The notes: generated from the sequence alone by a model not told the origin. 47,411 nucleotides of DNA from a virus (IMGVR_UViG_3300046471_000230:1-47411), one strand, 5' to 3'; shown: positions 1-8,830, counted from the first letter of the stretch. Numbers and translations are program-made.

Positions 1-504
1 ATGTCGTCGCTCGATATGGTGGCTTACATCAACTCGACGCGTGAGCCGGGTTCGGCGGAAGTCCGTCACGACAACTTCATGGCTAAGGTTCCAAACGTAC
101 TTGGCGTGAAGACGGCTCCTGAATATTTAGGAACCGTTCTCTATAGCTCCGGTAACGGCACGAAACGTGAACAAGCCGTCTACAACTTCCCACGCCGCGA
201 AGCCATGCTGATGGCAATGTCGTACAGCTACAAGCTCCAAGCCACTGTGTACGACGCATGGCAGGAAGCAGAGGCCAAGGTGGCTGCACAAGCTCCTGTC
301 CTGTTCGGCGCACCAACGAACTATCTTGACGCCCTGAAGCAGCTTGTGGCAAGCGTGGAAGTGCAGCCATGGATTCGCCGTCATTCGCATCAGGAAGGCC
401 GCAATGGCACCGCCACGGCGCTAACGACCTCATCCGGCAACACGGACCCACCCTCACTCCATTCAAGCGCCTGTAGAGCCTGTACGCCGGTCTACGTGGA
501 ATGA
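1..504 (+). CDS. Rha family phage regulatory protein, possibly frameshifted C-terminus
   Basis: 167 residues. Residues 1-95 match the Rha/phage antirepressor N-terminal domain: a start of the MSSLDMVAYIN type, an RHDNFMAKV helix, then FPRREAMLMAMSYSYKLQ near residues 64-81. Proteins of this family regulate phage genes and can interfere with lysogeny. From about residue 115 the sequence (SSGNTDPPSLHSSACRA) looks like out-of-frame translation: the next frame reads through a more ordinary Arg/Leu-rich tail and also stops near 480. A 1-nt indel is therefore possible but unproven. The gene begins at the first base of the window, so an upstream start cannot be excluded. Confidence 0.6.
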   Translation: MSSLDMVAYINSTREPGSAEVRHDNFMAKVPNVLGVKTAPEYLGTVLYSSGNGTKREQAVYNFPRREAMLMAMSYSYKLQATVYDAWQEAEAKVAAQAPVLFGAPTNYLDALKQLVASVEVQPWIRRHSHQEGRNGTATALTTSSGNTDPPSLHSSACRACTPVYVE

Positions 505-533
505 TGGCCGTATCAGGTAGGGCAGATTGATCC

Positions 534-720
534 ATCAGTAGTACTACACCTGTAAATACACTCATGTAGTACTACATTAATTAATAACTCTGTTACTACT
601 CGGTTATTAATTAACTACTCTCAAACTACTCCCTACTACTATCACTCATTACCTAAAGGTAATTCGTTATTACTATTAGTTATAAACAAGTTTTATATTG
701 ATAGTAATACGCTTGAATAA
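534..720. promoter_or_regulatory. AT-rich control region with palindromes and a 12-bp inverted repeat
   Basis: This AT-rich stretch interrupts GC-rich coding DNA. It carries two copies of the perfect palindrome GTAGTACTAC (about 539-548 and 566-575). It also carries a perfect 12-bp inverted repeat, TTAATTAATAAC at 577-588 with GTTATTAATTAA at 603-614, separated by 14 nt. Further ACTACT motifs follow to about 640. The make-up suits an operator cluster or an unwinding region. I see no convincing gene from 505 to 1204; a reading frame at 698-985 has no family resemblance and no clear ribosome binding site. Confidence 0.45.
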
Positions 721-1065
721 CTCACTCGCTGCGCTCGTTCGTAGGGCGAAGCTTAGCACGAGTGTTGCATTCTGTCAACATTCCCCTATGTCAGAGCCTT
801 GGCTTGCAGTCGCCAATATTCCCTCACAGTTCCCCGTTCAGGCCGGAATGACTCAGTTGGTTAAGAAATCTTTCGCGTCAATCTTCTTGGATGCACGCGC
901 GTATGCACGAACCGGATGCCAAACGCCTGCCTGCCACGGCGGACACCTGTATTTACGCAGAAGTGTTGCCTTAGGAGAATCATAGTGGTTTATATGTTAA
1001 TGCACTCGGGATTTTTTGGAAAACTGAAGAAAAGCCTTGACATGAAGGACATGTGGTGATCTAAC

Positions 1066-1094
1066 TTGACAAAAGTGTGTCTGTGTGGTAAGAT
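1066..1094 (+). promoter_or_regulatory. Sigma70 promoter of the left element
   Basis: A perfect -35 box TTGACA (1066-1071), a 17-bp spacer and a -10 box TAAGAT (1089-1094) point rightward at the small-gene cassette starting at 1205. A second TTGACA at 1037-1042 with TCTAAC 17 bp later (1060-1065) could be an overlapping weaker promoter. The roughly 110-nt untranslated leader ends in a Shine-Dalgarno AAGGAG just before the first gene. Confidence 0.6.
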
Positions 1095-1204
1095 GTTGGT
1101 ATCTCAAGAAGTGCTGCAACCCTGCCTTCTTTCCCAAGCTGTTTCGCGTTAAAACCCCCGCCAAACGAACAATTAATCTTTAATCAATAAGGAGTCGCAC
1201 CCCC

Positions 1205-1426
1205 ATGTCCACATTAAAAGCACGCCCAGCATTCGGCGCTAAACAAAACCTTCCCGAGTACTACACCGCTGTGAATTCCATCATCAGCGTTCTACGGGAA
1301 ACGGCAACGCTTCGCACCATCGCTGCCCACCTGAACAAGCATGCCTTCGTTACTCCTACTGGCAAATCTTGGACGCGCGAACGGGTAGCCACCTACCTGC
1401 AAAGCACCGCCGCAGCATCAATCTAA
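1205..1426 (+). CDS. Small winged-helix-like protein, recombinase-like DNA-binding motif
   Basis: 73 residues, with AAGGAG about 10 nt upstream of the ATG. Residues 36-66 (LRTIAAHLNKHAFVTPTG then WTRERVATYL) resemble the helix-turn-helix segment found in large serine recombinases and resolvase-associated domains, where it reads as A-x-x-LN-x-x-x-x-x-TP-x-G-x-x-W. No catalytic domain is attached. It is the first gene after the promoter at 1066 and could be a directionality or copy-control factor of the left element. Function is inference; only the motif is visible. Confidence 0.55.
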   Translation: MSTLKARPAFGAKQNLPEYYTAVNSIISVLRETATLRTIAAHLNKHAFVTPTGKSWTRERVATYLQSTAAASI

Positions 1427-1449
1427 TCACTCAAAATAAAGGAAATCCC

Positions 1450-1896
1450 ATGTCAAAATCAGCCGTCCTATCCAGCGAAATCATCGCCCCAGCAGTCCAA
1501 GCCGTTGAAGCTGTCGCCGCACCGTCCGCCGTCACGCCACGCCCCGGCTTCGTCGTCATTACCGAGCCAATCCACGTCGCAATGAGCGCCGCCGCCCACT
1601 GTATCCGCAACGGCTACGTGCCATGCGCTGAAGCCCCGCCAGAGATTTTCCTCAGCACAGGCTACGCAACGATCACTCTGCAACTTGGCTCCCCTGATGA
1701 ACGAGCAGTCAAAGCGGCCAATGATGCCCTTGAATTTGCCGAAGCCGTCCGCCAACGTGAGTACGATAAAGCGATTGCCGCCGATGTTCAGAAGCTTCTG
1801 GACCAGACCAAGCGCGATGCCGAACAAGCCGAACTTGCTGCGAAAATTGCCGAGCAAAAGCTTGCTATCCGCCGTCTTGAAGCGAAGTTGGCGTAA
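1450..1896 (+). CDS. Hypothetical protein with C-terminal coiled coil
   Basis: 148 residues, started at ATG 1450 behind AAAGGAAA, 23 nt after the previous gene. The N-terminus is Ala/Val/Pro-rich and probably disordered. Residues 85-148 are a long charged helix (repeated A-E-Q-A-E and K-L-A-I-R-R patterns) typical of a coiled coil. I do not recognise a family. The next gene starts 2 nt after its stop, so the two are probably co-translated. Confidence 0.5.
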   Translation: MSKSAVLSSEIIAPAVQAVEAVAAPSAVTPRPGFVVITEPIHVAMSAAAHCIRNGYVPCAEAPPEIFLSTGYATITLQLGSPDERAVKAANDALEFAEAVRQREYDKAIAADVQKLLDQTKRDAEQAELAAKIAEQKLAIRRLEAKLA

Positions 1897-1898
1897 CC

Positions 1899-2207
1899 AT
1901 GGCGACGACAAAACAAGCCTTCGTGCCGAAGTTGACGCCAAGCCAGATCGCAGCGGAAGCAGCAGCAGTACAGGCTCGAAAATTAGCCGCGCTAGAGCTA
2001 GTGACGGAGAAAGCAGCAGTGCTTCTTTCTGCCCGAACCGCGAACGAAATTGCACAGCAGGCAGCGAATGACGCCCTTCGGCTTAACGGCATGGATTTCT
2101 GGTTTGTCCATGCACGAATGGAAGAGTCCGCCGCGACAGACGCCGCAGAAGTAGCCGCACGAAGTAACTACGACGCCGCAATGGCCGACGCCATGCAGTA
2201 CGCCTAA
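1899..2207 (+). CDS. Hypothetical Ala-rich helical protein
   Basis: 102 residues, beginning 2 nt after the upstream stop codon, which indicates translational coupling. It is Ala-rich and almost wholly helical in character, with a central DFWFVHARM segment. No domain is recognised. A gap of about 147 nt without a gene follows before the next start. Confidence 0.45.
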   Translation: MATTKQAFVPKLTPSQIAAEAAAVQARKLAALELVTEKAAVLLSARTANEIAQQAANDALRLNGMDFWFVHARMEESAATDAAEVAARSNYDAAMADAMQYA

Positions 2208-2354
2208 GCCGCCATCCGGCGCAACCTGGGCTATCTCTGGCCCGACCAATCCCCGACACAAAACGCACGTCCCCGCACCCGCTACGCCTGTCTTTTTCAA
2301 GCGTCCGCACCGCTGCGCCCGGCGTTTTGTTCAACACACTTTAAGGAAAACAAT

Positions 2355-2648
2355 ATGAAATCCGAGTACCAACGAAATCAGGCCGCGAAAACGGCTCTTA
2401 CCCGCACCGCCACGCCAGCAAACGCTACCAATAAAGCGAAGCTGACACCAATGGAAAAGTTCACCCTCATGGTTCAAACGACCATGGCTATTGCCTTCGC
2501 CACTGCCACGACTACGGCGGCAAAAGCCAATGAAGGATGGGTTAGTACCTCGATTCATCAGCGACAGAAACAAGGCGCTTTCCACGCCAAGATCAAGGAA
2601 GCAGATACGCGTAGCGCCGTCAACTTCCGTTGCAAAAAGGCGGCGTAA
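2355..2648 (+). CDS. Hypothetical protein of the left element
   Basis: 97 residues, preceded by AAGGAAAA. It has a basic, Thr/Ala-rich N-terminus, a hydrophobic stretch around residues 37-58 (MVQTTMAIAFATATTTAA) that may be a weak membrane or signal-like segment, and a basic tail. The following ribbon-helix-helix-like gene starts 2 nt after its stop. I do not recognise it. Confidence 0.45.
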   Translation: MKSEYQRNQAAKTALTRTATPANATNKAKLTPMEKFTLMVQTTMAIAFATATTTAAKANEGWVSTSIHQRQKQGAFHAKIKEADTRSAVNFRCKKAA

Positions 2649-2650
2649 CC

Positions 2651-2875
2651 ATGCCAACGACAATCCCCCGCACCAATCGCCAGCGCATCACCACAAAGGC
2701 CGGTATCGCGCTTGAACGCTCATACGTGTTCATGGATACCGCCTCATGGGACGCACTCGCCCGACTCTGCGACCACCAAGGCCGCTCCGGCTCACAGGTT
2801 ATCGCATCACTCATCGCAATCGCCTCAATCGGCAAGCAACTGGACAAGACCAATGACAGCAACAAAACGCAGTAA
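2651..2875 (+). CDS. Ribbon-helix-helix-like small protein
   Basis: 74 residues. The segment SYVFMDTASWDALARLCDHQ then GRSGSQVIASLI has the strand-helix-turn-helix layout of CopG/MetJ-like DNA-binding proteins, which act as dimers on repeated operators. It overlaps the start of the helicase gene by 23 nt, tying its expression to replication. In plasmids and satellites such proteins often control copy number; that role here is inference. The palindromes at 539-575 or the iteron-like array at 4194 are candidate targets. Confidence 0.55.
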   Translation: MPTTIPRTNRQRITTKAGIALERSYVFMDTASWDALARLCDHQGRSGSQVIASLIAIASIGKQLDKTNDSNKTQ

Positions 2876-4193
2876 GACAGACGGCGATACCGTCACCAAA
2901 ACCGAGTATAGCGAATACGACCTACTGACACTTTCCCGCTACCACGACGTGTTGACGCAGGGGCGTTACTTCACTTTGTACAACGCTGCCAGCCCTCTCC
3001 CGCGCATCATTTCCGGGGAAAAGCACGAGGACGTTTTGCCGTTGTCGTGGCTGTGCGCCGACCTTAGAAAGTACTGCCGACAGACAGGCCGCAAGGTTCC
3101 GTCACCCATGCCAAGCGCGGACTACATTGCGTACAAGCTGGATATGGTGAACGGTACAATTTTCAAACCGAAAGCACCGGCCATGTATTCCCCCCGGTAC
3201 TCACGTCACAGCTACGTCAACATCTATAAGCACTTCGAGCGCCTGCACCCGGCCATCCCCCTGCCGCCAGTGTTTCACCGGCTGTTTGAGTGCATGTTCC
3301 CCGATCCTGTCGAGCGGCACACGTTCTTGCAATACGTCGCCCACATGTTCCAGTTCCCGGAAATCCGGCCAAGCTGGCACCCGATGTTGTTGTCTGAAAC
3401 TGGCACCGGCAAGGGCTTTCTGTTCACCGCCATCCTGACGCCTCTGTTGTGTGGACAGACGCGCTTACTCAAGAAGTATTCCGAACTGCTGGGACGCTTC
3501 GCTAACGCCATGTACGCCACCATCCTTGTCCTGTTGGACGACTGCAAATCACGGCGCGAAGACACGCAAACCGCGCTGAAATCGTTGATGTCAGAGCCAA
3601 GCGTCATGCTGGAAGAAAAAGGGCTTGCCGCTGGAATGGTCACAACCTACACGCGATTTTTCCTTGCAAGTAACGAGGAAGTTCCGCTTGACCTAGACGA
3701 CACAGAGCGCCGTTGGTGGATTCCGAAGCGTATGGGCTACTCCACTGGACTGACCGGAGACGAAGGGCGTAAAGAGCGCGTCGAGAACGTCATTCGCCCC
3801 CTGTCGGAATGGCTGGAAAAAGACGGCGCGTTAGACGCCATCCATGCCTATTTCATGTCCTACGACCTCACCGGCTTTGACCCAAAATCGCCGCCGATGA
3901 CAGAGACGCTACGCGAACAAATTGCGAAGTCCGTAACGGTAGAGCAGGCATTCACTGCTGACTACCTCAGCGCACACAAAACGAAGGTGTTGAAATCGGA
4001 AGACCTTAGCGCCGCATTCGCACAGGCCGGAATGAGCAAGCCCGGCAACATCGCTATCGGCAAGCTGTTCCAGAGTTGCGACTACCAACAGGATTTCATC
4101 ACGATTGGCGGCGCGAAATCACGCTGGCGGTTCCCGGCGTCCATGACGAAAAATGAAGCAGAAGCCATCTTGCACCGGCCTGTTGAGTTCTAA
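2853..4193 (+). CDS. SF3/DUF5906-like replicative helicase, no primase domain
   Basis: 446 residues from ATG 2853; an upstream in-frame ATG would overlap the previous gene almost completely and was rejected. Walker A reads SETGTGKG (about residues 181-188), a Walker B-like hydrophobic run ending in LLDD follows near residue 228, and FFLASNE with a later ERRWW supplies sensor and arginine-finger candidates. This layout is that of the helicase half of phage- and satellite-type primase-helicases. The N-terminal 150 residues show no primase motif, so priming would need another protein. The iteron-like array starts directly after its stop codon. Confidence 0.75.
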   Translation: MTATKRSKTDGDTVTKTEYSEYDLLTLSRYHDVLTQGRYFTLYNAASPLPRIISGEKHEDVLPLSWLCADLRKYCRQTGRKVPSPMPSADYIAYKLDMVNGTIFKPKAPAMYSPRYSRHSYVNIYKHFERLHPAIPLPPVFHRLFECMFPDPVERHTFLQYVAHMFQFPEIRPSWHPMLLSETGTGKGFLFTAILTPLLCGQTRLLKKYSELLGRFANAMYATILVLLDDCKSRREDTQTALKSLMSEPSVMLEEKGLAAGMVTTYTRFFLASNEEVPLDLDDTERRWWIPKRMGYSTGLTGDEGRKERVENVIRPLSEWLEKDGALDAIHAYFMSYDLTGFDPKSPPMTETLREQIAKSVTVEQAFTADYLSAHKTKVLKSEDLSAAFAQAGMSKPGNIAIGKLFQSCDYQQDFITIGGAKSRWRFPASMTKNEAEAILHRPVEF

Positions 4194-4265
4194 GAACGGA
4201 CGCAGAACGGACGAAACACGGACGAAGAACGGACGCCCTCATAGGAGGAACGGACGGCACGGACG
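4194..4265. repeat. Iteron-like direct repeats, 11-bp period
   Basis: Four tandem units containing ACGGACG start at 4194, 4205, 4216 and 4227, an exact 11-bp period (about one helical turn). Two further copies sit at 4248-4256 and 4257-4265. The core is GAACGGACG. Such phased repeats beside a replication gene are typical of origins bound by an initiator on one face of the helix. An AT-rich tract (attactaataaatg) follows at about 4276. The reading as an origin is inference. Confidence 0.6.
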
Positions 4266-4341
4266 ACATGAAACTTATTACTAATAAATGCCCGGTTCGT
4301 GCTGATGCATACGCCGGGATGACACGAAAGGAATTTCACCC

Positions 4342-5097
4342 ATGACCTACACATACGACTCTGAAGCCGAACGCGGCGCAGCCCTCACCATCGCCCAGCT
4401 TGGCGGCGTCCCCTGCCAATCGTTTCTGCCGCACCTGCCCGACTCATACCAAGACGCAGACGGCGCTGCTATTGGCGGCAAGCCAGATTTCCGCATCGAC
4501 CGCGAACGCTGCTTCACGTTCGTGGATACGAAGGACGGCGTTCTTCACTCGCACTACACTTTCGCCAGCAGTGACGACGCCCAGAAAGATGCTTACCGCC
4601 GCCACTTCCACCGCAGCGGTGACCATCTGACACACTGGGATCGCTCCAAAGCCCTGTTCTACGATACCCGCAACCGGCGCGGCAAAGCTCTGTCGCTGGA
4701 AACTGGCTGGAATCACCAGCTTTGGAAATTGGCGGCACTCCAAGCGCTCCACGGCTGGCAACGGTTCCTCGTCGTTTTCAAGTCGCCCCCAAAGGAGATT
4801 GATGCACTCCGGTACATCGCCGCTGGCCTAGTCTTCTGCACTGTTGCGACGCTGCCCGACATGATGCTTACGATTGAACTCAGCCAACACGGCTTTCTTG
4901 TGCCGTTCCTTTTCAAGACGACCAAGTACGCCTTCACTGTCATGCCCGATCCTGCAAGCCGTGGCCTGTCCTCTGATGCAATCGAAGCCTCCGACCGGAC
5001 TAAATTCCTCGCTGCCATCGAGACGGACAAAGCAGGCCGAGCCGAAGCGCTGGCACAAGCTGCTGCCGACTGGGACGCCGGATTGCGCCCGTTCTGA
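4342..5097 (+). CDS. Probable PD-(D/E)XK nuclease of the left element
   Basis: 251 residues. GKPDFRID at residues 46-53 followed by FVDTKDG at 60-66 gives the PD...(D/E)xK arrangement (D49, D62, K64) of restriction-endonuclease-fold nucleases, with Glu8 or Glu10 as a possible extra acidic ligand. The remaining sequence is not one I can place. It lies between the helicase/iteron unit and the serine recombinase in the same orientation, so a role in replication-intermediate processing or in attacking competing DNA is possible. Nuclease assignment rests on the motif alone. Confidence 0.5.
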   Translation: MTYTYDSEAERGAALTIAQLGGVPCQSFLPHLPDSYQDADGAAIGGKPDFRIDRERCFTFVDTKDGVLHSHYTFASSDDAQKDAYRRHFHRSGDHLTHWDRSKALFYDTRNRRGKALSLETGWNHQLWKLAALQALHGWQRFLVVFKSPPKEIDALRYIAAGLVFCTVATLPDMMLTIELSQHGFLVPFLFKTTKYAFTVMPDPASRGLSSDAIEASDRTKFLAAIETDKAGRAEALAQAAADWDAGLRPF

Positions 5098-5100
5098 CAC

Positions 5101-5223
5101 TGGCTCATGGCTCAACAGGGTATGCCCTAGCGCACCTAGACTAATGCGCCAGATAGATAGCTCAATAGGGTTGACTGTTAATGAGCCACCCATTATTATT
5201 GAGCCACCTACCCCACTGAGCCA
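5101..5223 (+). promoter_or_regulatory. Repeat-rich promoter and possible res site of the serine recombinase
   Basis: TGGCTCA occurs twice in tandem (5101-5107, 5108-5114). Its reverse complement TGAGCCA occurs three times (5182-5188, 5200-5206, 5217-5223). A longer direct repeat of the TGGCTCAACAGGGT type recurs about 50 bp later (near 5108 and 5158). A promoter TTGACT (5171-5176), 17 bp, TATTAT (5194-5199) lies between copies, with its -10 box flanked by repeat units. This suits an accessory resolution site that also autoregulates the recombinase. Confidence 0.5.
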
Positions 5224-5235
5224 GCAGGACGAAAA

Positions 5236-5823
5236 ATGAAAACGATTTATTACGGCAGAATCAGCACCACCGAAGGCCAGAAGAGTGACAGCCAGTACGA
5301 CGACGCCAATAAGCAAGGCGTTGACGCCAAACACGTTCATATTGACGAAGGCGTTAGCGGCTACCACGTCGCCCCTGCTGACCGTACAGAGTGGAAGCGC
5401 GTAATGGATAAGCTGTCTGACGGCGGCATCCTGTACGTCCGCTGGCTGGATCGCATCAGCCGTCGCTACGACGAACTGAACATCGTAATGCGCGAACTGA
5501 TGAACATGGGCGTCAAGGTTGTCTGCACCCTCAACGGCATGACCTTCGACGGCACAGCTACCAATGCAATCGATAAGGCTACCCGCGATGCCGTGTTGGC
5601 CTTCATTGCCGCACAAGGCGAAGCCGACTACCTGAACCGGAAGGAAATGCAGAAGCGCGGCATCGAGTTAGCCAAGTCATCCGGCGTCTACAAAGGCCGG
5701 GCTAAGACTCTCGACCCTGTCACGGTGAAGGAATGGCGTAACGAGCATGCCGCGTCCATCACCGCCACTGCCGAACACTTTGAAGTCTCGATTGCAACGG
5801 TTAAACGCTACTGCGCCGCCTGA
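5236..5823 (+). CDS. Serine recombinase (resolvase/invertase family)
   Basis: 195 residues, the usual length for resolvases. The N-terminus YYGRIST supplies Arg8 and the nucleophile Ser10. The LDRISRR segment near residues 76-82 corresponds to the conserved DR-x-x-R region, and a long E helix with KRGIELAKSSG precedes a C-terminal helix-turn-helix (about residues 160-195, TATAEHFEVSIATVKRY). It resolves or inverts DNA at sites like the repeats just upstream. It is the last gene of the left element's rightward unit and is followed by an intrinsic terminator. Confidence 0.88.
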   Translation: MKTIYYGRISTTEGQKSDSQYDDANKQGVDAKHVHIDEGVSGYHVAPADRTEWKRVMDKLSDGGILYVRWLDRISRRYDELNIVMRELMNMGVKVVCTLNGMTFDGTATNAIDKATRDAVLAFIAAQGEADYLNRKEMQKRGIELAKSSGVYKGRAKTLDPVTVKEWRNEHAASITATAEHFEVSIATVKRYCAA

Positions 5824-5853
5824 TCTGACATAGCCTTAGCAAGCCACTGGACA

Positions 5854-5880
5854 GCCCACCCTGACACGGTGGGCTTTTTC
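5854..5880 (+). terminator. Rho-independent terminator after the serine recombinase
   Basis: GCCCACC (5854-5860) pairs perfectly with GGTGGGC (5868-5874) around a 7-nt loop, followed by TTTTT. It closes the left element's rightward transcription. The remaining 180 nt up to the converging cargo operon hold nothing else that I can identify. Confidence 0.8.
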
Positions 5881-6063
5881 ACGTCCATACCCTGCCCACC
5901 AGCGCTACGGCGTCTCCTGTTGATATTTCGTTTTGTCCTGACGGCATTGCGCCGACGTGCCCCGCTTGTTGACAATCGAATTCGCAACATGATCGTTTCC
6001 AGATACTTTTCTATTCCTGGGATTCAATTATCTGAACAGGTGCACTTTTTCCCAGAATTTTTA

Positions 6064-6729
6064 TTATTTTTCACCGACGGATGAATTTCTGTATCTGTCA
6101 CCATCCAGCCAACCTTCACCCTGTAGTGTTCTGAATTCCCTTATAGCGGTAAGCGCGACTTCTTTATCCTCCACCATGCTAATAATTCCGAGCAGTGACA
6201 ATAAAGAAATTGACTGTGAAGTTGCGATTACTTCCAGCACTTCTTCAAGTGGATAATTAGGCTCAATTGAATCGGCACTTGACCAACGCTGCGTTTGCTG
6301 TCCACCAGTATGCGTGAAGTCGCAGAGCCTACTATAATTTTGTTCCCTATACCTATTAAGATACCCGCCCTCAAAATCAGGATGGGCATCAATTGCTTCC
6401 ACGAGTTTCTTAGTACCGGGAGGTTCTTTATGGGCTATGAAGTCTTCAACTTCTTTATCTGTCGCGCACGAAGATAGCCATACACCACGCACGTATGCGT
6501 CAAAAGCCACCCGGACGAGCGCGAAGCTTGTTGCGTACAACTCATGCTCCGACAGCAGGACAACGGCCTCATGGTGCCCCTGCGCGACCACGAAACAACT
6601 TGTCGCCGCCTTGAAGCGATCCGTAGCCGTCACTCGCAAAAGTTCTGTCATATCCCGTATAAAATCCACCCGCGCATTTGCTTCCGCTAGGAGTTCTTTG
6701 GGCACGGATACCATTAATTTGTTATTCAT
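6064..6729 (-). CDS. HEPN-like hypothetical protein (DUF5677/DUF6988-like), possible toxin or defence effector
   Basis: 221 residues, mostly helical. Residues 37-86 (FKAATSCFVVAQGHHEAVVL and on to RVAFDAYVRGVW) resemble the helical bundle of DUF5677/DUF6988-like proteins. SRLCDFTH at 133-140 gives an R-x5-H pair (Arg134, His140), the catalytic pattern of HEPN ribonucleases, although this motif is short and could occur by chance. It is the second gene of a leftward two-gene operon, 9 nt after the membrane protein. The lower GC content than the neighbouring prophage suggests separate acquisition. Function is inference. Confidence 0.5.
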   Translation of the reverse strand: MNNKLMVSVPKELLAEANARVDFIRDMTELLRVTATDRFKAATSCFVVAQGHHEAVVLLSEHELYATSFALVRVAFDAYVRGVWLSSCATDKEVEDFIAHKEPPGTKKLVEAIDAHPDFEGGYLNRYREQNYSRLCDFTHTGGQQTQRWSSADSIEPNYPLEEVLEVIATSQSISLLSLLGIISMVEDKEVALTAIREFRTLQGEGWLDGDRYRNSSVGEK

Positions 6730-6738
6730 TATCGTCCC

Positions 6739-7221
6739 TTAATTATGGAAGCCGCCAGCCGCCGGAAACCACGCCAGATACACAATGAAGTTTAGCATCA
6801 TTACAAACATCAAAAGAACTACCGCCGTCATTGATAATGCAAAAACGTAAACTCCAATAATGATATACCACCGCTGCTTAAACAGTTTTTCGTAGAGAGT
6901 ACCGGAACTAACCGGCGAGTCTTCCGCTAGTCCAAAAAGGTTGAGCCGAAGCCAAATGCAATAAGTTTGGCCCGCGTTCAAAACGAATAAGATTAAAGCA
7001 ATAGCTAAAAATACCCATGCGTATGGCCCCCATCCTCCGTGGGGAGGACCATTGAATATATATGGAGGCGCTGTTGCTTTACCGCTTTGAAACCACCGAG
7101 CAATAAAAATTATACCGCCGATAATCGCGTAATTTCTTATATTGTCAAAGACTACCTTCAAAGATAACTCTTTCTCAGGCAGCAAAAACTTTTTGATAGC
7201 TTCAATGTTGCTACTAGGCAT
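6739..7221 (-). CDS. Membrane protein paired with the HEPN-like gene
   Basis: 160 residues from ATG 7221, which has AAGGAG about 12 nt upstream; an in-frame ATG at 7323 adds an Arg-rich leader unlike the rest. Three hydrophobic segments are visible, near residues 30-43 (AIIGGIIFIARWF), 66-86 (AWVFLAIALILFVLNAG) and 116-148 (IIIGVYVFALSMTAVVLLMF). A Gly/Pro-rich loop lies between the first two. No family is recognised. Its place as first gene, 9 nt from the next, suggests the two products work together at the membrane. Confidence 0.5.
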   Translation of the reverse strand: MPSSNIEAIKKFLLPEKELSLKVVFDNIRNYAIIGGIIFIARWFQSGKATAPPYIFNGPPHGGWGPYAWVFLAIALILFVLNAGQTYCIWLRLNLFGLAEDSPVSSGTLYEKLFKQRWYIIIGVYVFALSMTAVVLLMFVMMLNFIVYLAWFPAAGGFHN

Positions 7222-7350
7222 TCTTACATCGCTCCTTTTAGTCCGACGTCCTGCCGCGCGGGATGCGATGGCACTTCGATAGCTGGTTGACAACATGGTG
7301 CAACCAAGCACAGCGCAAGGCAATGGAAAAATTCAGATGGTCAACGCAAT

Positions 7351-7394
7351 CCGCTTACAGTCCGCTTACAGAAATAATTATTAGCCCTGTAAGC
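7351..7394. repeat. Paired CCGCTTACAG repeats with inverted copy near the tRNA 3' end
   Basis: CCGCTTACAG occurs at 7351-7360 and 7362-7371 (11-bp period), and CTGTAAGC, the reverse complement of its last eight bases, at 7387-7394. Short direct repeats near a tRNA 3' end resemble the arm-type binding sites of tyrosine integrases. They lie 43 nt beyond the encoded CCA of the tRNA gene, on the left-element side. No second half-site is visible in the window. Confidence 0.35.
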
Positions 7395-7436
7395 TGCAAG
7401 CGCTTTTCTCTACCGCGTTGATTTTAAAGGAGTTTT

Positions 7437-7513
<77 letters not shown>

Positions 7514-7599
7514 TGTGTTGATTTATAAGGCTTTTCTCGGAAATTTGAGTCAGCTTAAAATGCCGGTTTGCGGTGCGCTCCGCAAAGAGTGAGGAAGCG

Positions 7600-8631
7600 C
7601 TACCTCGTCGGCGTTACAATTTTACCACGGCGCAAGTAGTGCCGGCGGGTGGTCTTGACGCTGTCATGGCCCAGCAAATCGCTCGCCGCCTGCTCGCCGC
7701 GCTGGTCCGAAGTGTCGTCAGCGGCCTTCGCTCGGAGGTCGTAGAACCAGAATGCCTTGATGCTTTCGGTCAACTCTGGATGCTTCTTTGCAGCCAAGTC
7801 TTTTGCCATGGAGAAATGATCGCGCAGCACCTGCTTGGTCAGTGGCATGCCGTCGCGGTTCATCAGCAGTTGCGCATGCTCGGTTCGGTGCTGCTCCTTG
7901 CGCGCCAGGATGCGCTCTACCAGCGCCGCCAGCTCGCCGGTGACCGCGATGCGCAGCTTCTTGCCGGTCTTGCCCTGGTCGACCACCAGCACCCCGTCGA
8001 CGATATCGTCAGCGCGCGTCTTGAGCGCATCGCCGGGCCGCTGGCCGGTGAGGTAGGCGAAGTCCAGCGCCTCCTGTAATTGAAGGCTGCCGTGCGCGCG
8101 CACCGCGTCGAATACCGCGTCGGTGATGTATACCTCGCGCTTGGCCAGGGCGTGGCCCATGATCCCGGTGCACGGGTTTTCGAGATCCGTATAGCCCCAC
8201 CCGCGCGCATGGTTCCACAGCGTCGAGAACAGGCGTTTGCACCGGTTCGCCGTCGTCGGCTTGTCGTCGTGGTCCTGCAGGAAATTCTTGATGTGCATCG
8301 GGCGAATCTGGTTCAGAGGCGCCGCGGCGAACGACTTGTCGAGGTGCTTCATGTCGGATCTGTGCGTGGCGATCGTGCTTTTCGAAAGCGTCTCCAGCAC
8401 GTCTTTTCGGTATCGCGCCATCACGTCACCGAACGTCGGATCGTCGGTTTTGGTGGGGGCCTCGTACAACTCAGTGTATTTGCGCAGCGCGAGCAGGTAA
8501 TCGTCGCCAAGCGGGATTTCCTTGCGCGGCTTCTCGCCGGTGTCCAGGTAGTAAAAAATCCTGCCGCTGCGCTGTGTGCGCTTGCGCATGTGCGGCGGCA
8601 GGTTCGAGTTCTTGCTTGGCTTCCTACCCAC
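7600..8631 (-). CDS. int: Phage tyrosine integrase
   Basis: 343 residues from a GTG start at 8631 preceded by GGGAG; this start gives the usual GRKPSKNSNLPP opening. The SAM-like arm/core-binding domain covers about residues 65-145 and the catalytic domain 165-343. Catalytic residues are Arg198 (TGQRPGDA), Lys221 or Lys224, Arg300 in YDLR, His322 (LLGHDS) and Tyr332. The box II histidine is replaced by Tyr297. The start overlaps the upstream DUF4224 gene by 8 nt. A 7-bp hairpin at 7567-7586 follows the stop codon. It catalyses prophage integration and excision; the neighbouring tRNA is the obvious candidate site but the orientation is odd. Confidence 0.92.
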   Translation of the reverse strand: MGRKPSKNSNLPPHMRKRTQRSGRIFYYLDTGEKPRKEIPLGDDYLLALRKYTELYEAPTKTDDPTFGDVMARYRKDVLETLSKSTIATHRSDMKHLDKSFAAAPLNQIRPMHIKNFLQDHDDKPTTANRCKRLFSTLWNHARGWGYTDLENPCTGIMGHALAKREVYITDAVFDAVRAHGSLQLQEALDFAYLTGQRPGDALKTRADDIVDGVLVVDQGKTGKKLRIAVTGELAALVERILARKEQHRTEHAQLLMNRDGMPLTKQVLRDHFSMAKDLAAKKHPELTESIKAFWFYDLRAKAADDTSDQRGEQAASDLLGHDSVKTTRRHYLRRGKIVTPTR

Positions 8632-8830
8632 GTCTTGGCATCTCCCATACCTTTTCCGGTGCCGGGGGCGGCACCTTGCTTCCTTCAATGACAGAGGTGG
8701 CCACCACCGGCTTGCCTACTGCATTGACGCGGAATGGCACGCCCATGCGGCGCAGCGCCTCGATCTGCTTGGACTTCACTTTTCGGCCGGTCAGTTCGGC
8801 TAGCTCGTCGGCATTGAGAAACATGCTCAT
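8624..8830 (-). CDS. DUF4224 protein, excisionase-like
   Basis: 68 residues with AGGAG upstream of the ATG. The sequence MFLNADELAELTGRK followed by IEALRRMGVPFRVNA is the signature of DUF4224, small winged-helix proteins nearly always encoded directly before phage integrases and thought to act as excisionase or integrase regulators. Its end overlaps the GTG of the integrase, and its ATG overlaps the stop of the preceding gene (ATGA), so the three are translationally coupled. Confidence 0.85.
   Translation of the reverse strand: MSMFLNADELAELTGRKVKSKQIEALRRMGVPFRVNAVGKPVVATSVIEGSKVPPPAPEKVWEMPRRG

Follow-up and report, generated by a model that had tools for sequence, protein, structure and literature searches.

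A probable small plasmid-type replicon with a primase-less DUF5906 helicase in bacterial DNA beside a prophage

Introduction

The initiator helicases Rep of SaPI and Cch2 of SCCmec have their origins directly downstream of their own genes, and the origin iterons are recognized by the C-terminal DNA-binding domain of the protein (PMC7581432). We propose the same arrangement for the helicase gene described here, and the likeness is meant as an analogy of layout: SaPI and SCCmec are staphylococcal chromosomal islands with recombinases of their own, and Cch2, unlike our helicase, has a partner polymerase. In the archaeal pRN1 replicon, a small regulator gene shares an operon with the gene of an SF3 helicase protein, and the origin region follows downstream (PMC4234260), again as proposed for our locus. 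However, pRN1 joins helicase and primase-polymerase in one protein and has a stem-loop as its origin instead of a set of iterons.

A similar block is found on two Klebsiella plasmids, pKP-2683-1-6.5 (NZ_CP122577) and that of K. oxytoca P4 (OW849137), whose primase-less DUF5906 helicases are 41-42% identical to ours. Like our locus, both have a coiled-coil gene upstream, a small gene over the helicase start, repeats and an AT-rich tract directly behind the helicase gene, and a serine recombinase. They differ from it in repeat sequence, recombinases and accessory genes. The recombinase of pKP-2683-1-6.5 is larger than ours and has the opposite orientation; neither plasmid has a counterpart of our 251-aa gene, and both are free circles. 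Other small DUF5906 plasmids are pRHB04-C06_4, pRHB09-C13_4, pMP1, pIsolateG_E and M. nodulans pMNOD07. These have in common with our locus a DUF5906-type helicase or primase-helicase, 22-29% identical to ours in the matched part and in some cases about 840 aa long, and mostly a serine recombinase. A repeat array sometimes stands behind their helicase gene, the enrichment being absent or weak in several. We found no paper in the open-access literature that describes DUF5906 plasmids as a family, and absence there is weak evidence.

Here we analyse a 47,411-base IMG/VR virus record, the whole of which we call the window. The segment from about 480 to 5880 is probably a small plasmid-type replicon that lies in bacterial DNA beside a prophage and outside it, and that would combine a self-loading helicase and iterons with host priming and a resolvase. 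The block is distantly related to a set of plasmids, rare and little studied, from enteric and other bacteria. The replicon would be stranded or integrated in the host genome, that is, in an integrated rather than a free state.

Table 1. Features in and near the proposed replicon (coordinates of the window)
Position	Strand	Feature	Basis
1-504	+	Rha/Ant-like phage antirepressor gene, apparently truncated at the 3' end	PHROG 63/4936, E 2e-11 and 3e-10
520-720	.	AT-rich non-coding stretch with short direct and inverted repeats	repeat scan, families D3, D20, I4, I9
1066-1094	+	promoter-like TTGACA-17-TAAGAT, TG before the -10	promoter scan
1205-1426	+	73-aa protein, recombinase-type helix-turn-helix (HTH_62/PF07508)	E 2e-5 and 1e-4
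1450-1896	+	148-aa coiled-coil-like protein	alignment and phmmer to Klebsiella plasmid gene
1899-2207	+	small gene, 102 aa	ORF only; no family by Pfam, PHROGs, NCBIfam
2355-2648	+	small gene, 97 aa	ORF only; no family by Pfam, PHROGs, NCBIfam
2651-2875	+	74-aa ribbon-helix-helix-like (RHH-like) gene, overlapping the helicase start	weak PF07878 match
2853-4193	+	primase-less D5/DUF5906 SF3 helicase, 446 aa, proposed replication initiator	PF19263, motifs, plasmid relatives
4191-4265	+	iteron array, six ACGGACG	repeat counts against shuffles
4266-4290	.	short AT-rich stretch at the iteron end, proposed unwinding element	lowest-GC 30 bp behind the helicase
4342-5097	+	251-aa orphan protein with PD...DTK motif, possible nuclease	motif by eye only
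5101-5223	.	TGGCTCA/TGAGCCA half-site cluster in both orientations, proposed resolution (res) site	shuffle test
5236-5823	+	195-aa serine recombinase of the resolvase/invertase size class	PF00239, E 3e-16
~5853-5880	+	terminator-like hairpin closing the gene block	inverted repeat, then T run
7437-7513	-	tRNA-Arg(TCT)	ARAGORN

Replication genes, repeats and recombinase

We found that the helicase is of the D5/DUF5906 SF3 type. It matches PF19263 (DUF5906) with 61 bits against a cutoff of 27.6 (E 2e-16) and has a Walker A motif (GTGTGKG), a Walker B-like motif (ILVLLDD) and arginine residues, with GTGTGKG, LDD and RRW conserved. Its PDB match is the helicase part of the NrS-1 phage primase (E 8e-8). 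The N-terminal part matches no primase in Pfam or PHROGs, and the PHROG 'DNA primase' match spans only the helicase half of that profile; the protein is thus not a primase-helicase fusion, in agreement with the sequence-only reading of this DNA, which had described an SF3-like helicase lacking a primase domain. The C-terminal part (about residues 361-442) is modelled as a winged-helix-like fold of helices and a beta hairpin with pLDDT of about 65-83, the remainder of the model being mostly of low confidence. In a Foldseek search, this C-terminal model matched mostly winged-helix proteins, none of them significantly.

A tblastn search of the helicase against 72,556 plasmids gave eight records. 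The top two (E 9e-59 and 4e-59) are the circular Klebsiella plasmids of 6.5-6.6 kb introduced above, which are non-mobilizable and match over two thirds of the protein. On these plasmids the helicase is the sole replication-type gene annotated, so the nearest relatives of the window helicase are the sole replication-type genes of small circular plasmids. This fits the earlier idea that the replicon is compact, may be an integrated plasmid and obtains its priming from elsewhere. The phage matches are primase-type proteins with 22-27% identity among the matches listed. That idea had come with the remark that no described element is known to have this exact gene set, and the exact set was indeed not found elsewhere, the replication block being present on other plasmids. 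Scans of genome collections for the gene order of the block gave no relative, and a DNA-level search of plasmids found nothing. The complete genomes of E. coli lack the window helicase DNA, the Klebsiella-type block and most of the block of plasmid L007.

The ACGGACG repeats behind the helicase gene start at 4196, 4207, 4218, 4229, 4250 and 4259. The first four stand in exact 11-bp register and the last two are off it, so the 11-bp phasing noticed earlier holds for four of the six copies. Direct repeats are clustered here beside the proposed initiator gene beyond chance, as in iteron replicons: six copies stand in the 300 bp behind the helicase gene, whereas 200 dinucleotide shuffles gave 2.2 on average and never more than 4. 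The adjoining AT-rich stretch (9/30 GC) is the minimum within 400 bp behind the helicase gene; it is modest, being equalled by 3% of the 30-mers of the element. Across the whole of plasmids L002, L003 and L007, and across the element in the window, no repeat cluster is stronger than that directly behind the helicase gene. The repeats are unrelated in sequence (ACGGACG in the window; AATCCCA and TGTAACC among the plasmids), and each array adjoins an AT-rich tract. The enrichment is weaker or mixed in L004, L005, L022 and L023, and L006 has none behind its helicase gene. That the iterons of the window lie on one side only counts against a replicon, as does the modest AT-rich tract.

Upstream of the helicase, the promoter claimed in the sequence-only reading is present as a site with recognizable -35 and -10 elements, but it is weak: promoter-like sites in the region are no more numerous than expected by chance, and the location of this one ahead of the first gene is suggestive. 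The helix-turn-helix domain of the 73-aa protein also occurs in the Klebsiella plasmid recombinase. The 148-aa protein aligns with the product of the Klebsiella plasmid gene at 2253-2759 (z 4.9, a score reached by none of 200 shuffles; phmmer E 0.013), and by this similarity the two are likely homologues in equivalent places upstream of the helicase. The small genes at 1899-2207 and 2355-2648 match no family, just as they had been listed. The gene listed as ribbon-helix-helix-like does show such a match, but only under the cutoff (PF07878, E 0.012). The Klebsiella plasmids have a small gene in the equivalent position that likewise overlaps the helicase start, and it has no Pfam match.

Downstream of the iterons, the 251-aa protein had been called a PD-(D/E)XK-like nuclease. 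No Pfam or PHROG family matches it, the collections searched contain no homologue, fold support is absent, and its structure model is unusable (pLDDT 35). The call goes back to the PD...DTK motif, and 'nuclease' is a guess. The serine recombinase stands as described. Its top PDB match is 2r0q (E 3e-8), which we take to be Sin resolvase, followed by the Tn3 and gamma-delta resolvases. The five copies in the TGGCTCA/TGAGCCA cluster were reached in none of 300 shuffles, so a recombinase of resolvase size lies beside clustered half-sites, as in serine resolvase systems; a promoter-like site (5171-5199) is located inside the cluster. We considered a large serine integrase and dropped it, the recombinase being too short. 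The terminator described at the end of the block corresponds to a hairpin with arms AGCCCACC-GGTGGGCT at about 5853-5878, followed by T, though our terminator scan did not flag it. Searches of viral contigs for the nuclease candidate, the recombinase and the DUF6988 gene that lies further right found nothing.

Extent of the block and the prophage boundary

The first codon of the window is ATG and its last codon is a stop, which suggests a provirus trimmed at gene boundaries; the parent contig probably extended past both ends. Because the record is cut in this way, the left edge of the window is not necessarily an edge of the element. The similarity of the antirepressor to phage antirepressors ends at residue 105-116 of 167, and this gene is probably outside the replicon. 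This loss of similarity near residue 116 puts the probable start of the element, first given as position 1, somewhere past about 350. The exact element is known as one copy in a single linear record, and no free circle of it turned up. A search for its ends through flanking repeats gave chance-level matches only and no repeat connecting the two proposed edges.

The right part of the window is a prophage with a tyrosine integrase and an excisionase at 7600-8830 and with genes for an Erf-like annealing protein, a CI-like repressor, a primosomal-type protein, terminase, portal, scaffold, major head protein and lysis. In a related phage record (L010), whose integrase is 72% identical to that of the prophage, the sequence matches over the leader and the initial 42 bases of tRNA-Arg(TCT) and diverges thereafter. 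In L010 the integrase lies on one side of this tRNA fragment, and spanin, endolysin and a tail-like gene lie on the other, indicating that the fragment is attP. In the window, the 42 shared bases (7472-7513) run on into the 3' half of tRNA-Arg. As attP of L010 holds the 5' half only, positions 1-7471 of the window are bacterial DNA beyond the left attachment site. By this comparison the left prophage boundary is within 7472-7513, and the crossover can be placed no finer than the 42 shared bases.

The block is thus not between the attachment sites, and we dropped the early region of the adjacent prophage as its identity. The sequence-only reading would have yielded had these genes been the normal early region of a larger prophage; this does not apply to the adjacent prophage, which has its own int/xis, CI repressor, Erf annealing protein and primosomal-type protein.

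Alternative explanations and proposed mechanism

D5/DUF5906 helicases serve phages and satellites too, and the PICMI primase model uses DUF5906 (PMC10803314). Together with the antirepressor-like gene next door and the adjoining prophage, this leaves a small chance that the block is a phage satellite with its own helicase, induced and packaged by the adjacent prophage or another phage. However, the block lies outside the att site, has no stretch longer than about 21 nt in common with the prophage, and has its best helicase relatives among plasmids. PICI, P4 and PICMI satellites have an integrase with an AlpA-type regulator and genes that redirect packaging or capsids, whereas Pfam, PHROGs and NCBIfam recognized no tyrosine integrase, AlpA, Fis, capsid or packaging gene in 500-5880. 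On these grounds the earlier proposal of a satellite depending on the adjacent phage is not supported.

We also regard it as unlikely that the block lacks autonomy and is left over from the replication module of another prophage or island, one situated left of position 1 and largely out of view. The broken-looking antirepressor-like gene at the left end of the window leaves room for such a remnant, the record probably continued past both ends, and the TCCGCTTACAG repeats past the tRNA 3' end are located where integrase arm sites often lie. On the other hand, the antirepressor looks broken ahead of the start of the block, a resolvase-size recombinase beside a repeat cluster suits plasmids, and the phage relatives of the helicase are far less similar than the plasmid ones. 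Joining of a free small plasmid to a chromosomal contig during assembly seems unlikely as well. In the viral record L008, an IS3-like element connects a Klebsiella-type plasmid block with unrelated phage-like DNA; metagenome records can thus show such plasmids attached to DNA of that sort, and the window could be an artefact of this kind. Against this, the right edge of the block shows no insertion sequence and no long repeat. Even if the joint were artificial, the replicon would still be a plasmid of the described kind.

For the plasmid-type replicon that we prefer, we propose a mechanism covering iteron binding, origin function, host priming, copy control and dimer resolution, which goes beyond the gene families, the repeat arrays, the layout common with circular plasmids and the position outside the prophage, all of which are observed. 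The primase-less helicase would bind the ACGGACG iterons behind its gene through its C-terminal winged-helix-like domain, assemble as a ring, open the neighbouring AT-rich DNA and load itself. Primers would be supplied by the host, through DnaG or RNA polymerase. The product of the overlapping RHH-like gene may repress the replication operon and so set the copy number, and the small serine recombinase may act at the TGGCTCA cluster ahead of its gene and resolve plasmid dimers.

More tentatively, and with well under even chances in our estimation, a primase-less D5-type initiator helicase with an iteron origin directly downstream may define an unrecognized class of small bacterial plasmids that use host priming and can lodge in chromosomes, and the 251-aa gene may represent a new nuclease family tied to this mode of replication. 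The comparison links small plasmids with no recognized Rep protein, which are poorly described, to the start of replication in SaPI and SCCmec. If it is correct, a DUF5906 helicase followed by repeats could be used for typing such plasmids, and the primase-less helicase could provide a simple system for host-priming recruitment.

Neighbouring and related loci

Several features lie near the block or on its relatives. In the C. freundii plasmid L005, nine CGAATAC/GTATTCG copies (L005:1225-1430) stand directly upstream of the serine recombinase gene and may form a resolution site comparable to that proposed for the window. The same plasmid encodes on the minus strand (L005:7915-8472) a protein with no Pfam match that, by eye, seems to combine an RHH segment with a recombinase-like HTH segment behind it; in the window, the RHH and HTH domains belong to separate genes. 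In L008:1-5100, the recombinase of the Klebsiella-type DUF5906 block is cut by the IS3-like element, through either integration or an assembly artefact.

Between the block and the tRNA, a DUF6988 gene and a small membrane-protein-like gene lie side by side on the minus strand (6064-6729 and 6739-7221). Their GC content is 42-48%, unlike that of the prophage, and the DUF6988 gene matches the candidate defence model PDC-S52 (E 3e-20). Just past the tRNA 3' end (7350-7393) are a tandem TCCGCTTACAG repeat and an inverted CTGTAAG, which together resemble the arm sites of an integrase from another integrated element. The 22-mer occurs once in another viral contig (L024), which shows no other similarity; the repeat was set aside as a clue to a second integration. 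At 7472-7600, it is the 5' half of tRNA-Arg(TCT) that serves the prophage integrase, and a substitute tRNA leader appears to come with the phage. In a relative (L015), tRNA-Arg(TCT) lies beside the integrase in the opposite orientation.
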